Shown here one piece after another: positions 3,638 to 19,278 of a stretch of 19,278 nucleotides of DNA; position 1 is the stretch's first letter, and every line of letters starts with the position of its first letter. The stretch covers positions 1-19,278 of the forward strand of contig OMIW01000074.1 in NCBI GenBank assembly GCA_900299205.1, read 5' to 3'. Source of the stretch: Pseudomonadota bacterium (lineage in GTDB: Bacteria > Bdellovibrionota_C > UBA2361 > OMIW01). Position numbers and translations under genes: made by a program. The notes under the pieces are model-generated. The model made no database searches, was not told the DNA's origin, and saw only the letters and a list, made by a program, of their open reading frames with translations.

Positions 3638-5512
<1,875 letters not shown>

Positions 5513-5551: not shown

Positions 5552-6376
5552 GTGGGTCTGGATATGGTTCCCGTACAAATTGGAGAATGGGAGATCATTA
5601 TCCGCTCGGTCATCGATATTCTTTTGGTGGCGGTACTTCTTTACCGAGGCCTTCTTATTATTCGGGGTACGAGAGCGGTCCCGATGTTATGGGGGCTGAT
5701 CATCGTCGTCGCCGTTCATCTGTTGGCAACTCATCTCCATATTTTGACCCTGGCGTGGGTACTGGGTCGATTTCTCGATGCTATAATCATTGTGGCGGTT
5801 ATCCTCTTCCAGGATGAGATTCGGCGTGCTCTCACGAAGGTGGGGCTGCAACAGATATTCGCTGGTGAGGTGAATGCCGGACCAGATCAGCTGCTTGATG
5901 ATCTTGTGGTCGTCTGCGGCAAGTTCTCCAAGAGTCGCACCGGAGCGCTCATCGTCATTCAACGCACGATTGGCCTGGATGATCTTGTTGAGGATGCTGT
6001 TGTTCTCGATGCCATAGTGAGTAGAAAGCTGCTCAGTGCTCTTTTTATTAAAGATAGTCCTCTTCACGATGGCGCGGTGGTAATACATCAAGGGCGTATC
6101 AAAGCAGCGGGGTGTGTGCTTCCTCTGACCTCGAATCCAGATCTTGATCCCAATCTGGGCACCCGCCATCGGGCGGCGGTGGGTATATCCGAACGGAGTG
6201 ACGCGGTTATCGTGGTTGTATCTGAAGAATCTGGGGCGGTTTCAGTTGTTTGTGAGGGGAGAATCGTTCGCAATCTCGATGCCCCTGCACTGAAAAATAT
6301 TCTTACCACTCACCTGAACGGGGAAAAGGAACGGAATTCGGAGATCTTTCTCAGGAGGTCGCAGCAGGTATCATGA
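5552..6376 (+). CDS. cdaA: Diadenylate cyclase CdaA (DacA)
   Basis: Joins two ATP molecules into cyclic di-AMP at the inner face of the membrane. The 274-residue protein has three N-terminal membrane helices (about 16-36, 43-62, 66-86), a short coiled linker and the DAC domain, with catalytic DGA (Asp173-Gly-Ala) and RHR (205-207 in GTRHRAAVG) motifs intact. The next gene, cdaR, overlaps its stop by 4 bp (ATGA), and glmM follows: the conserved cdaA-cdaR-glmM order, in which CdaR and GlmM bind CdaA and tune its activity. Start is either GTG at 5552 or the in-frame ATG at 5564; neither has a good Shine-Dalgarno, and the 39-bp gap after ftsH suggests cotranscription. Identification is secure from the two motifs plus context. 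Confidence 0.95.
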   Translation: MGLDMVPVQIGEWEIIIRSVIDILLVAVLLYRGLLIIRGTRAVPMLWGLIIVVAVHLLATHLHILTLAWVLGRFLDAIIIVAVILFQDEIRRALTKVGLQQIFAGEVNAGPDQLLDDLVVVCGKFSKSRTGALIVIQRTIGLDDLVEDAVVLDAIVSRKLLSALFIKDSPLHDGAVVIHQGRIKAAGCVLPLTSNPDLDPNLGTRHRAAVGISERSDAVIVVVSEESGAVSVVCEGRIVRNLDAPALKNILTTHLNGEKERNSEIFLRRSQQVS

Positions 6377-8816: not shown

Positions 8817-10346
8817 TCAGAATGTCGAAAAAGCCTCATTCTCTGCTGCCGAGGCTGCATCACCCCTTTTAAGGCCCTTTTTCTGTGAACGCAGAACGCG
8901 GAGGGACTGAATACACCGGGGAGAGTACATCCCTCTCTCTGCACACGCGAGAAAGGGAAGGGTCGGATCAAAGGAGCGAACAGCAGTCAATGCCGAGGTA
9001 CATTCAGACGGCACGACGTTTACGAGACCAAGAGGTTGAGGTGCTGACGGGTCTTTTTGCCCCTGTTTTTCATTTGCCGCCTGTTGGCCGATGCCACTCT
9101 GACCTGCTCCCGGACTCGACGGGGCACGAGGGGGGAGCTGAGCCCTGAAACCCTCGTCGTCATCTATTTTGCCCCGACCCGATCTTTTTGCATTTCTTTG
9201 TTCGTGCTCTCGAGCCTTTTCCTGTTCTGCGAGAAAGGAGTTTATGCCGTAGGGGTCATCCTTTTGGCGGAAATCTCGCGTCTGGACCGAGGGACGTACC
9301 CGAACCGATATCTGTGTTGAGGCACACGCTGTTCTCAACAATTTATCCGCTAAGTTTGTCATCTCTGACCGAAGATTTTCTCTCTTATCCTCGGTGGCGG
9401 TACGAACCACCTGTTGATAGGTCTGCATGCTCGACGAAAATTGCGCTCTCAGCGTTTCTGATTCTGATTGAGTCCTCGATTTTTCCCCACGCTTCGAGCT
9501 CAATGAGCTGGTCGACTGAAGGGTGGTATCAGCATCAGCCGAATAGCAAGAGGGTGAGTCAATCCCATCGCGGGCACAGGTAGCAGAGGTACTTCCCGGA
9601 TTCAGCTTCAGAAGTCTCTCAATCGCGGCTTGGCATAGCAGGTTGTTCGATGATGCCGGGTCGCTTTGACCGCGGAACGATAGAGAGCGCAACATGCCCT
9701 GCATGCAAGCCACCTGGGTAAGTCTCTCGAGGGCGGCTATTCTCTCGATGTTGCGTTGCTCGGTGGGATCGCTCTCATAGCCTGAAGAGGCGAGAACGAA
9801 GCGGTAGTGAGCAAGCCTGACCGGAGTATTAGAATTGCCGGCGGGCACCTCATCAAGAAGGGAGTGAGGCAAGGTTTCGGCTTTTGTCGGAGAGGGTGAC
9901 GCTTCTGGGGGTGGATTTCCTGCTGTCTTTATTGCGGTTGAAAGTGTGCTCGGCTGCTTCGGATTGTTTGCTGAGTTTGGGTAAGGATCGTTTTGTTTTA
10001 AACCATCCGCATCGATTAGGCCCGGCGGGGGGGGGGCATTACCCGCCGATGTTGTCGAGGAATCTCCCGAATGCAAGGCAGGGGCTGTGATAGTATCCTC
10101 TTCAATAATCAGAGCCGAAGGAACCTTCTGACGGGGTTGCGGAGGTGATTGCTCGGCACTCGGGGCCGATTTTGGAAGAGGTGCCTCCTGGAGGTCCATC
10201 GCAATCGAGGACCTCTGGTCTGAGGACTGCGACCGATTTGACAGCTTAAGCAGCGCCACACCGACCATGCCGAGGAGAAGAATAACAAACCCTACCCGCA
10301 CCCGGGGTGACAGAGAAATCCATCGTTCAAAGAGGGGGTCGCGCAT
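8817..10346 (-). CDS. Hypothetical membrane-anchored protein with paired Cys modules
   Basis: Not recognised. The 509-residue product has a short basic N-terminus and one membrane helix (about 17-35, VRVGFVILLLGMVGVALLKL). A long Pro/Ser/Thr/Asn-rich stretch (about 40-175, including PPPP and PPPEASPSP) is probably disordered and outside the cytoplasm. Two modules follow with identical cysteine spacing: Cys238-Cys257-Cys267 and Cys449-Cys468-Cys478, both with CAxxGxxSPxC at the end. A charged helical stretch (about 296-340) and a Lys/Arg/Asp/Gly-rich linker lie between them. AGGA is 6 nt before the ATG. An extended -10 box lies about 113 bp upstream. A C10 tract in the coding strand (10027-10036) encodes part of the PPPP. 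It is convergent with glmM and divergent from psd, so context gives no function. An envelope spacer or scaffold protein is a guess. Confidence 0.7.
   Translation of the reverse strand: MRDPLFERWISLSPRVRVGFVILLLGMVGVALLKLSNRSQSSDQRSSIAMDLQEAPLPKSAPSAEQSPPQPRQKVPSALIIEEDTITAPALHSGDSSTTSAGNAPPPPGLIDADGLKQNDPYPNSANNPKQPSTLSTAIKTAGNPPPEASPSPTKAETLPHSLLDEVPAGNSNTPVRLAHYRFVLASSGYESDPTEQRNIERIAALERLTQVACMQGMLRSLSFRGQSDPASSNNLLCQAAIERLLKLNPGSTSATCARDGIDSPSCYSADADTTLQSTSSLSSKRGEKSRTQSESETLRAQFSSSMQTYQQVVRTATEDKRENLRSEMTNLADKLLRTACASTQISVRVRPSVQTRDFRQKDDPYGINSFLAEQEKAREHEQRNAKRSGRGKIDDDEGFRAQLPPRAPSSPGAGQSGIGQQAANEKQGQKDPSAPQPLGLVNVVPSECTSALTAVRSFDPTLPFLACAERGMYSPRCIQSLRVLRSQKKGLKRGDAASAAENEAFSTF
8913..9002 (-). 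repeat. Cys module, copy 2 (residues 449-478)
   Basis: Cys449, Cys468 and Cys478 with Ala452, Pro461, Ala469, Gly472 and SerPro475-476 match copy 1 position for position at an offset of 211 residues. Confidence 0.65.
9546..9635 (-). repeat. Cys module, copy 1 (residues 238-267)
   Basis: Cys238, Cys257 and Cys267 with Ala241, Pro250, Ala258, Gly261 and SerPro264-265. Spacing of the three cysteines (19 then 10) is the same as in copy 2. Confidence 0.65.
10027..10036. repeat. G10 homopolymer inside the 509-residue gene
   Basis: Ten consecutive G on the + strand, read as C10 in the leftward gene within a Pro-rich linker. A tract of this length is prone to slip by one base, which would shift the frame and remove both Cys modules. 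Confidence 0.7.
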
Positions 10347-16423: not shown

Positions 16424-18082
16424 ATGGCACTACTATCTGACAAAGTATCCGAGCTCCAGCTGATGGTGGAGATGACGTATGAAGGCGATACGGTTGGTAT
16501 ATCACTCCTTGAGGAGTTGGTTATTGATCTTATTGCCTCGGCGAAAGGAGATCCGATAGAGGTAGACCTCTTGGATATAGTTCGCTCGAGTCAGTCTCCT
16601 GATTTCATACCCAGAATACGGAAGTTTATCGCGGAATATCAGGGCTCTCCTCAGGACGCGAGCAGTAAGGAAGAGCAACCTCAGACTAAGCAGCACAATC
16701 TTCTTGAAGGTATTCCTCAGGAGAAGATTCAGGAACTTCAGCTTCTCGTTGACATGACCCATGAAGGGGACAGTATCGGCTGCGTTCTCATTGCTGAGCA
16801 ATTGAAGGAACTGGCTTCGCTTGCAGGCGGTCGTCCGGGTGAGGGGGAGATTAAACGGCTTGTCGATTCCGCCGGCGATCCCAATTACCTGAACCAAGTG
16901 AGGAGATTTTTAGGAGTCGATCAAGGGGGCAGCGGATCGCAAAGTCTTCCATCAACCGCTCAATCGTCAGGCTCGGATGACGGGGTGGGGCCTGTTTCTG
17001 GGGAAAACGTCACCGCCGTAAGTGAGTCGAAAACAGAGACTGATGATGTAAGCGCTCCAATCGGAGACTTCGAGCCACTAGCGGTTCAGGTGGACGAATC
17101 CTCTCCATTTGTTGACCTTCTTCCTCAAGACTTTCTGGACCAACTTCTGATGGGGGGAGGACCAAGTCCAGCCGCGGTCACCGCTGAACCTCAGATGAGC
17201 ATGGGTGAAGAGGAGGTACAGCAGGCAGAGGATGCAGAGGGCGACAGTGCCGAATCGGCTCCCGAGGAGGAGGGTCCCGAGGTTCTTGAGGACCTAGGCG
17301 ATATAGCCCCCCAGTACGCGATTGAGGGGGACCTCGACATCTTACAGGAGTTCGGCACAGAGTGCGAAGAGCATATAAACGCGATTGAGCAGGTCATTCT
17401 TGAGGCAGAGGGCCAATACGCTAAAGATGCTATTGATACAATTTTCCGGGGTATTCACTCCATTAAGGGGGGGTCAGCCTATTTCAATCTTCAGGAGATG
17501 AAGAAATGTTCACATCTCTTGGAGGATATGCTGCATGAAGTCCGGGACGGTCACCGACCGATGGACTATCGACTCGAGCAGCTTTGTCTCTTCTATCTTG
17601 ATTGTCAAAAGGATGCTCTCAAAAGATATCGGGATGCATCGGCCTCAGGTGCACTGGTCAAGCGATCTGACGATTCTTTGCGTCTCCTCCAACTTATCCG
17701 AGCTTTTGATAAAGGAGGTCCAATCAATCGAGATGCAATAGGGGCTAAGCCAGTGCCCTCGGCATCGAACCCGAGTGAGAAAGAGGAATTTGAGGACGAG
17801 TCGACCTTATCCGAAGATGACGTCGATGTGAGCGAAAGTGAGCAAGGAGAGCCTCGGCACGAGCAAAGGGCTCAACCTGACCGGTCTACAGGCCAAGATG
17901 CGCAACAGGCTGCCCATCGTTCGGCCTTTCCAGGAAAAGTGCGGGAGAAAAAAGTAGCACCGCCCCCGCACCGGCTGATAAAGGTCCGAAGAAGGCTGCG
18001 GCTGAGCCTAAGAGGGGTCAGCAGCTTGCAAAGAAGATCGCAAACGAAGCGGCGGAGGCTTCGAAGAAGTTCGTTAAAGTAG
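16424..18082 (+). CDS. cheA: Chemotaxis kinase CheA, N-terminal and HPt part (frame breaks in linker)
   Basis: Begins at an ATG with only a weak ribosome site. Residues 7-74 and 101-168 are two copies of one module (see repeats), function unknown. An acidic Ser/Glu/Asp-rich linker (about 170-295) follows. The HPt domain (about 300-430) carries the phosphorylated His345 in FRGIHSIKGGSAYF. After about residue 435 comes a second acidic linker. In this frame the protein ends at 18082 with an Arg/Leu/Ser-rich tail from about residue 512 that is clearly out-of-frame sequence, because the kinase core continues in the -1 frame. The true reading probably leaves this frame near the A6 run at 17948-17953. 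CheA autophosphorylates the HPt His with ATP and passes phosphate to CheY. No P2-type CheY-binding domain is obvious between HPt and core. Confidence 0.9.
   Translation: MALLSDKVSELQLMVEMTYEGDTVGISLLEELVIDLIASAKGDPIEVDLLDIVRSSQSPDFIPRIRKFIAEYQGSPQDASSKEEQPQTKQHNLLEGIPQEKIQELQLLVDMTHEGDSIGCVLIAEQLKELASLAGGRPGEGEIKRLVDSAGDPNYLNQVRRFLGVDQGGSGSQSLPSTAQSSGSDDGVGPVSGENVTAVSESKTETDDVSAPIGDFEPLAVQVDESSPFVDLLPQDFLDQLLMGGGPSPAAVTAEPQMSMGEEEVQQAEDAEGDSAESAPEEEGPEVLEDLGDIAPQYAIEGDLDILQEFGTECEEHINAIEQVILEAEGQYAKDAIDTIFRGIHSIKGGSAYFNLQEMKKCSHLLEDMLHEVRDGHRPMDYRLEQLCLFYLDCQKDALKRYRDASASGALVKRSDDSLRLLQLIRAFDKGGPINRDAIGAKPVPSASNPSEKEEFEDESTLSEDDVDVSESEQGEPRHEQRAQPDRSTGQDAQQAAHRSAFPGKVREKKVAPPPHRLIKVRRRLRLSLRGVSSLQRRSQTKRRRLRRSSLK
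16442..16645 (+). repeat. CheA N-terminal module, copy 1 (residues 7-74)
   Basis: Starts KVSELQLMVEMTYEGDTVG and ends RKFIAEYQG. It aligns without gaps to copy 2 at an offset of 94 residues. Shared positions include ELQL, V, MT, EGD, G, and a C-terminal R-x-F-x4-QG. Confidence 0.8.
16724..16927 (+). repeat. CheA N-terminal module, copy 2 (residues 101-168)
   Basis: Starts KIQELQLLVDMTHEGDSIG and ends RRFLGVDQG. The two copies are separated by a 26-residue polar linker. The nucleotide sequences have diverged, so the duplication is old and kept at protein level. Confidence 0.8.
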
Positions 18083-19278
18083 ATACTGAACGGCTTGATA
18101 ATCTGATAGACCTCATCGGTGAAATGGTGGTCTTCTCATCGGTCCTTGTCAGGTTCTGCAAACTTCATATGTCCGATCATAAGGATGTTATGGATGCCGC
18201 CCATCGTGTCGAAAAGTTCTCGAAGGAGCTGCAGGATGTCGGGATATCGATGCGGCTTGACCCAATCCGGGGGCTTTTCCAGAAGATGCAACGTCTGGTG
18301 TGGGATACAAGCAAACGGCTCGGGAAGGATATCGTATTCCAGATGGAGGGAGAGGATACCGAGCTCGATAGAAACCTGATCGATCGGCTCGCCGATCCCC
18401 TTATGCACATGGTTCGTAATTCTCTTGATCACGGTATCGAGCCGAACGATGAGCGCGATTTGGCCGGTAAACCTCGAAAGGGGACGATTAAACTGTCGGC
18501 CTACCACTCCGGAGGTAACGTTCACATAAAAATACAGGACGATGGCCGTGGGCTTGATCCGGCAAAACTGATAGCGAAAGCGATTGATAAGGGGATTATC
18601 GAGGATGGGAAGAGAATTTCCAACGACGAGGCATTCCAGCTCATCTTTGCACCTGGTTTCTCAACTGCTGCTCAGGTGACGGACCTGTCGGGGCGAGGCG
18701 TTGGCATGGATGTAGTTCGGCGAAATGTCGAAGACCTGAGAGGGAGGATTCACATTCAGTCCAGTGTCGGTAATGGGGCGGCTTTCATTATCGAGCTCCC
18801 TCTCACTTTGGCAATCATAGAGGGGATTCAGATCTCAGTAGGGGCGGAAAACTTCATTATTCCGAGTCTCTCGATAGTTGAATTTCTCCGACCGCGTCGA
18901 GGGATGATTTCGCGTGCGATGGACAGTGCAGAAACCTTCTTCTTCCGGGGGAAATATCTTCCTCTCTTCCGTCTCTCCGAGGTTTACAGCATTGATGGAG
19001 CGATAGAGGATCCGGAGCGCGCGTCGATAGTGGTCCTCGAAGAGAACGGGGATCAATTCGCGTTCCTCGTTGATACGATTGAAGGGGAGTGTTCAACAGT
19101 AATTAAAAGTCTTGGCGAGGTGTTCGAAGAGGTCAAGGGAGTATCGGGGGGAGCTATCATGCCTCAGGGTAACGTGGTGCTTATTCTCGATGTCAAATCG
19201 CTCGTCCGGTTGGCCCAAGAATCTTACACGCATGTCGACAGAAGTAGAGAATATCAGGCTGATGGAAATGGGCCAGTC
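17881..19278 (+). CDS. cheA: Chemotaxis kinase CheA, core part in -1 frame (runs off right edge)
   Basis: This frame is open from 17881 (after a TGA at 17878) to the window end and encodes the rest of CheA. After an Ala/Lys/Pro linker come the dimerisation helices (from about 18073, VDTERLDNLIDLIGEMV), the GHKL ATPase with N box HMVRNSLDHG (18394-18441 region), G1 DDGRGLD (18538-18558), F box FAPGFST and G2 GRGVGMDV (18691-18714), then the CheW-like domain from about 18790. All ATP-binding motifs are intact. There is no ATG, GTG or TTG in this frame before the ATG at 18124, which lies inside the dimerisation helices, so separate translation of a working core is unlikely. It is best seen as one gene with the upstream part, interrupted by a -1 shift. 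The stop is not in the window. Confidence 0.9.
17948..17953 (+). other. A6 run at the probable cheA frame switch
   Basis: GAG AAA AAA GTA in the upstream frame becomes GAG AAA AAA AGT AGC ACC if one A is added, which joins the two CheA halves with a smooth Lys-Ser-Ser-Thr-Ala-Pro linker. Both frames are open only between 17881 and 18079, so the switch must lie there. Confidence 0.5.

Follow-up and report, generated by a model that had tools for sequence, protein, structure and literature searches.

A single frame break in the linker of cheA in a draft Bdellovibrionota_C genome is probably a homopolymer-length error

Introduction

CheA proteins with multiple HPt domains have been described (PMC10782961), and the cheA gene analysed here shares with them the HPt, P3, P4 and P5 domains; its orthologues in related bacteria have one or two HPt domains. 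It differs from these proteins in keeping only the second HPt domain and in having a duplicated N-terminal segment. There is also a superficial likeness to CheA3 and CheA4 of Rhodobacter sphaeroides, in which the HPt domain and the kinase core are located on separate polypeptides. However, CheA3 and CheA4 are encoded by two proper genes, whereas no start codon precedes the dimerisation domain in the core analysed here.

In the GeneTack survey, sequencing errors or indel mutations were considered the likely cause of unclustered frameshift genes that BLASTP and Pfam had confirmed (PMC3711429). The present cheA resembles these singletons in its one break, the lack of a conserved frameshift site, and halves that match one family. 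Unlike them, it is on a contig from a fragmented draft genome in which other genes also show homopolymer breaks. We searched the open-licence literature for cheA together with frameshift, phase variation or recoding, and found no paper plainly on a recoded cheA.

The window, by which we mean the whole 19,278-nt stretch of DNA analysed, is the entire contig 74 (OMIW01000074.1) of a draft genome of a Pseudomonadota bacterium (GTDB Bdellovibrionota_C, UBA2361, OMIW01; GCA_900299205.1). The draft consists of 2.45 Mb in 206 contigs and is approximately 90% complete. For controls, a 0.94 Mb portion of the genome was sampled in pieces.

Results

The CheA domains are divided between two reading frames

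The 5' part of cheA (16424-18082, forward strand) encodes N-terminal repeats, an acidic region, an HPt domain and the start of the linker, and is read in a single frame from an ATG at 16424 to a stop codon at 18080. Its HPt domain (17336-17581, forward strand; residues 305-386; Pfam PF01627, E 1.4e-13) carries the phosphorylation motif HSIKGG. The 3' part (18067-19278, forward strand) encodes the P3 dimerisation, P4 ATPase and P5 CheW-like domains (PF02895, PF02518 and PF01584) in the -1 frame relative to the HPt frame. From 17881 onwards this core frame has no stop codon and stays open until the contig ends at 19278; the 3' end of the gene is beyond the contig end, and the last residues and the stop codon are outside the sequence. 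Pfam matches were to one Hpt domain upstream and to H-kinase_dim, HATPase_c and CheW downstream, and the functional CheA domain set is complete when both frames are combined.

An earlier note on this DNA, made from the letters and open reading frames, had described the HPt half (start 16424) and the ATPase core as being in different frames, with the core in -1, and our ORF and stop positions agree. It had further given 17881-18079 (forward strand) as the sole interval that is open in both frames, and this matches the stop positions exactly. The break therefore lies within this interval, as judged from the stop positions and a coding-frame crossover near 17958, and the cheA domains are not on one open frame as they are in the orthologues. 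In an open-frame scan of the 0.94 Mb sample, the cheA overlap was the longest same-strand overlap of coding frames without an internal start codon. In the portion of cheA that was sequenced, the stop listing revealed no further stop or frame break, and additional disabling mutations of the pseudogene type were absent; the domains and motifs on both sides are whole, as the earlier note had also reported for the catalytic motifs.

The N-terminus of CheA (16424-17059) consists of two tandem copies of a segment of approximately 90 residues (30 of 87 residues identical, E 8e-18). Orthologues appear to have one copy of this segment, and in most of them a first HPt domain comes next, which is absent from the protein encoded in the window.

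The position of the frame change is broad

Codon statistics, for which 487 long open frames from this genome served as the training set, favoured the upstream frame as far as about 17940 and the core frame after about 17970. The coding optimum for the frame change was 17958-17961, with only approximately 45% of the weight within 17940-17962, and a hexamer Viterbi scan placed the switch at 17958. Beyond the switch, the tail of the upstream ORF is arginine-rich and has a non-coding score, as out-of-frame sequence does. Of the homopolymers close to the frame change, the strongest suspect is a run of six A residues (A6) at 17948-17953 on the forward strand. The earlier note had placed the change at this run, where adding one A would restore the frame; the run is indeed close to the coding crossover, but this siting is finer than the data support. 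Because the spread of the crossover is wide, A6 is a good suspect for the break site and is unproven as such.

Orthologues of cheA are continuous

A comparison with relatives, which the earlier note had suggested, identified 14 orthologues with 50-61% identity in the core, each of which is one open frame through the linker and needs no shift. These relatives are of the same order and class, the nearest being of the same order; one orthologue (L005) is truncated, its 5' end lying beyond the contig. Since all 14 carry the same domains in one frame, chance overlap of two frames was ruled out as the origin of the arrangement in the window. The longest A-run in the 180 nt before P3 ranged from 0 to 6 bases across the orthologues, and the tract is thus not common to them. 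A scan of GTDB-based contigs for a closer match returned only a distant Psychrobacter match.

A double-HPt orthologue on contig 82 of G035 (L174) showed several frame changes and in-frame stops, and is followed by cheR-like and cheD-like genes. Broken copies of cheA thus do occur in drafts of this class, through decay or noisy sequence.

No second gene with an H-kinase_dim (CheA dimerisation) domain was found in the genome, which gave one match to this domain. Open frames in the genome include two MCP genes, one CheR-domain gene and five flagellin-domain genes, and the window also encodes CheY, CheX, CheW and an MCP. As the sole CheA found in a flagellin-bearing genome, this protein is not an expected target for loss.

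Homopolymer-associated breaks occur in other conserved genes

We compared 86 conserved genes of the 0.94 Mb sample with the proteins of two relatives (30,263 aligned residues), and only two were frame-broken: cheA and a sensor kinase. The latter, a PAS-HisKA / HATPase-REC hybrid (L082, contig 49, approximately 19374), is broken at an A7 run, with the same sign as the break in cheA. An ab initio scan with domain confirmation identified a break in dnaX (L158, contig 86, complement strand, approximately 2443-2504) at a C9 run inside the AAA+/ATPase domain. Here, TIGR02397 positions 1-150 are matched in one frame and 143-354 in another; the PF13177 match is likewise divided, into positions 2-131 and, in the next frame, 127-159. 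A BrkB/YihY-family gene (L173, contig 101, approximately 11019) is broken at a G9 run, with profile positions 3-197 followed by 199-257 of 259. In the kinase, dnaX and BrkB/YihY genes, the break falls within a domain or at its edge. Breaks similar to that in cheA are therefore present elsewhere in the draft, including in an essential gene.

The essential gene dnaX encodes the clamp-loader ATPase. A search of the genome itself found no second complete dnaX; the next match, on contig 170, covered only positions 22-219 with a far lower score, and is probably holB, encoding the delta-prime subunit. Amongst the relatives searched, dnaX was mostly a long open frame, with a few matches that had an internal stop or were fragmented. 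A fixed break in dnaX should be lethal, so the consensus is wrong at this site or at best represents a minority allele. Since dnaX is essential and no other copy was found, at least one break of this kind cannot be fixed in living cells.

Candidate frame switches in the Viterbi scan occurred at 1.3 per 100 kb here versus 1.9 and 0.6 per 100 kb in the two relatives, which means that this genome has no excess of them in raw terms. The argument for an artefact rests on the domain-confirmed homopolymer breaks and not on this rate. Several Viterbi candidates were discounted as ordinary overlapping genes (for example at 6314 in the window) or chance, and two (L172 and L105) were left uncounted as the upstream side had no domain match. 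The L105 candidate (contig 72, complement strand, approximately 4236-4449) is a possible break with a weak match to the hydrazine synthase alpha middle domain (PF18582, E 4e-10).

G/C runs of at least 8 bases were found 48 times in 784 kb of long open frames here, versus 3 times in 272 kb in the relative G007. Long G/C runs are frequent, as at 10027 (G10) and 13011 (G9) in the window. These runs could be contingency tracts, or could reflect weak selection or length errors, and their abundance offers more sites for length errors or for real slippage. The sampled part also contains 174 A6 runs in long open frames, nearly all without a detected break, and A7 runs are likewise common.

Discussion

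The earlier note had offered four explanations for the split cheA (a homopolymer miscounted in sequencing or assembly, a real inactivating mutation, phase variation, and -1 recoding or transcript slippage) and chosen none of them. The first is best supported, as the same draft is broken at C9 in dnaX, at G9 in the BrkB/YihY gene and at A7 in the sensor kinase. We consider it likely that the break in cheA is a homopolymer-length error in the draft consensus and that the gene is continuous in the living population. The wrong run length would probably be at A6 or a few tens of bases away at most, and the cheA break probably shares its technical origin with those in the other three genes. The simplest reading of all these breaks is a draft with homopolymer-length errors, of which cheA is one more. 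Consistent with this are the 14 continuous orthologues, the intact flanking domains and the lack of any other break in cheA. Consensus error would also account for a broken copy of the only H-kinase_dim gene in a genome whose flagellin-like, CheR and MCP genes are open, and for three more homopolymer breaks in conserved genes, amongst them dnaX with no intact copy found. However, A6 is short, and nearly all of the 174 A6 runs in long open frames are unbroken. Short-read consensus is seldom wrong at runs of this length. Runs of 9 bases, such as those at the dnaX and BrkB breaks, are more prone to error than A6, and the raw rate of frame switches does not exceed that of both relatives.

Because A6 is much shorter than C9 or G9, an appreciable though clearly smaller probability remains with a recent, real single-base indel that inactivated cheA in the strain sampled or in a fraction of the population, with no time for further decay. 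Intact domains and motifs on both sides and the lack of a second stop or break are what such a recent event would leave, and the orthologue on contig 82 of G035 is broken too, though possibly through noisy sequence. An indel of this kind would nevertheless remove the only CheA found while flagellin-like and chemotaxis genes stay open, and would offer no shared cause for the similar breaks in the kinase, dnaX and BrkB. A tract that changes length by slipped-strand mispairing could instead switch CheA on and off, and the position of the homopolymer in a dispensable linker, together with the many long coding homopolymers of this genome (the excess of G/C runs over G007 described above), would suit such phase variation. 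We regard it as improbable: A6 is not a long repeat and is below the 7-nt minimum for poly-A/T tracts of the frameshift survey (PMC3711429), A6 and A7 runs are common in the genome and nearly all are in unbroken frames, and the tract is not common to the orthologues.

Joining of the two halves during expression, by -1 ribosomal frameshifting or by transcript slippage at the A-run, possibly with an HPt-only protein as a second product, is very unlikely. The required shift is -1, the stretch in which both frames are open is long, and an A_AAA tetramer, a known but weak -1 motif and among the less efficient ones (PMC4066793), is present at the site. However, the zero frame reads GAG AAA AAA GTA, so that the register is G AAA AAA G, out of step with an A-AAA-AAG heptamer as the earlier note had observed, and there is no X_XXZ_ZZN heptamer. 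The downstream RNA fold is ordinary (z -0.69; 52 of 200 shuffled sequences gave an equal or better fold), and the site is not conserved, with all 14 orthologues in one frame. The doubts about recoding voiced in the earlier note are thus borne out by the heptamer, the fold and the conservation alike. For slippage by E. coli RNA polymerase, detectable restoration needed more than 7 consecutive A or T (PMC6260861). In E. coli and Buchnera alike, A/T runs were the only runs with transcript insertions (PMC5574713), and slippage would therefore not rescue the breaks at C9 and G9. A generally slippage-tolerant organism accordingly fails to explain the set of breaks, as C9 and G9 are not A/T runs. Least credible of all, and close to negligible, is that the HPt domain and the kinase core act in trans as two proteins, like CheA3 and CheA4 of R. 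sphaeroides, although split CheA systems of this type have been described (PMC6829392, PMC10782961). The core frame has no ATG, GTG or TTG before 18124, and no clear Shine-Dalgarno sequence precedes that codon. As this first start codon is inside the P3 dimerisation domain, an independent CheA4-like core is unlikely, and the end of the HPt ORF, which is out of frame, has a non-coding score. We rejected both a stimulated frameshift and independent translation of the core.

The split in cheA is probably an ordinary artefact and not a real feature of the gene. Should A6 be real and fixed, a weak -1 event could give a little full-length CheA and an excess of the HPt fragment, or the tract could toggle chemotaxis, an outcome to which we assign a low probability; a real A6 would represent a rare, frame-dependent control of a central chemotaxis kinase. 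If instead the break is a homopolymer-length error, as we favour, split genes in this draft, cheA and dnaX included, are not to be read as gene loss or recoding.
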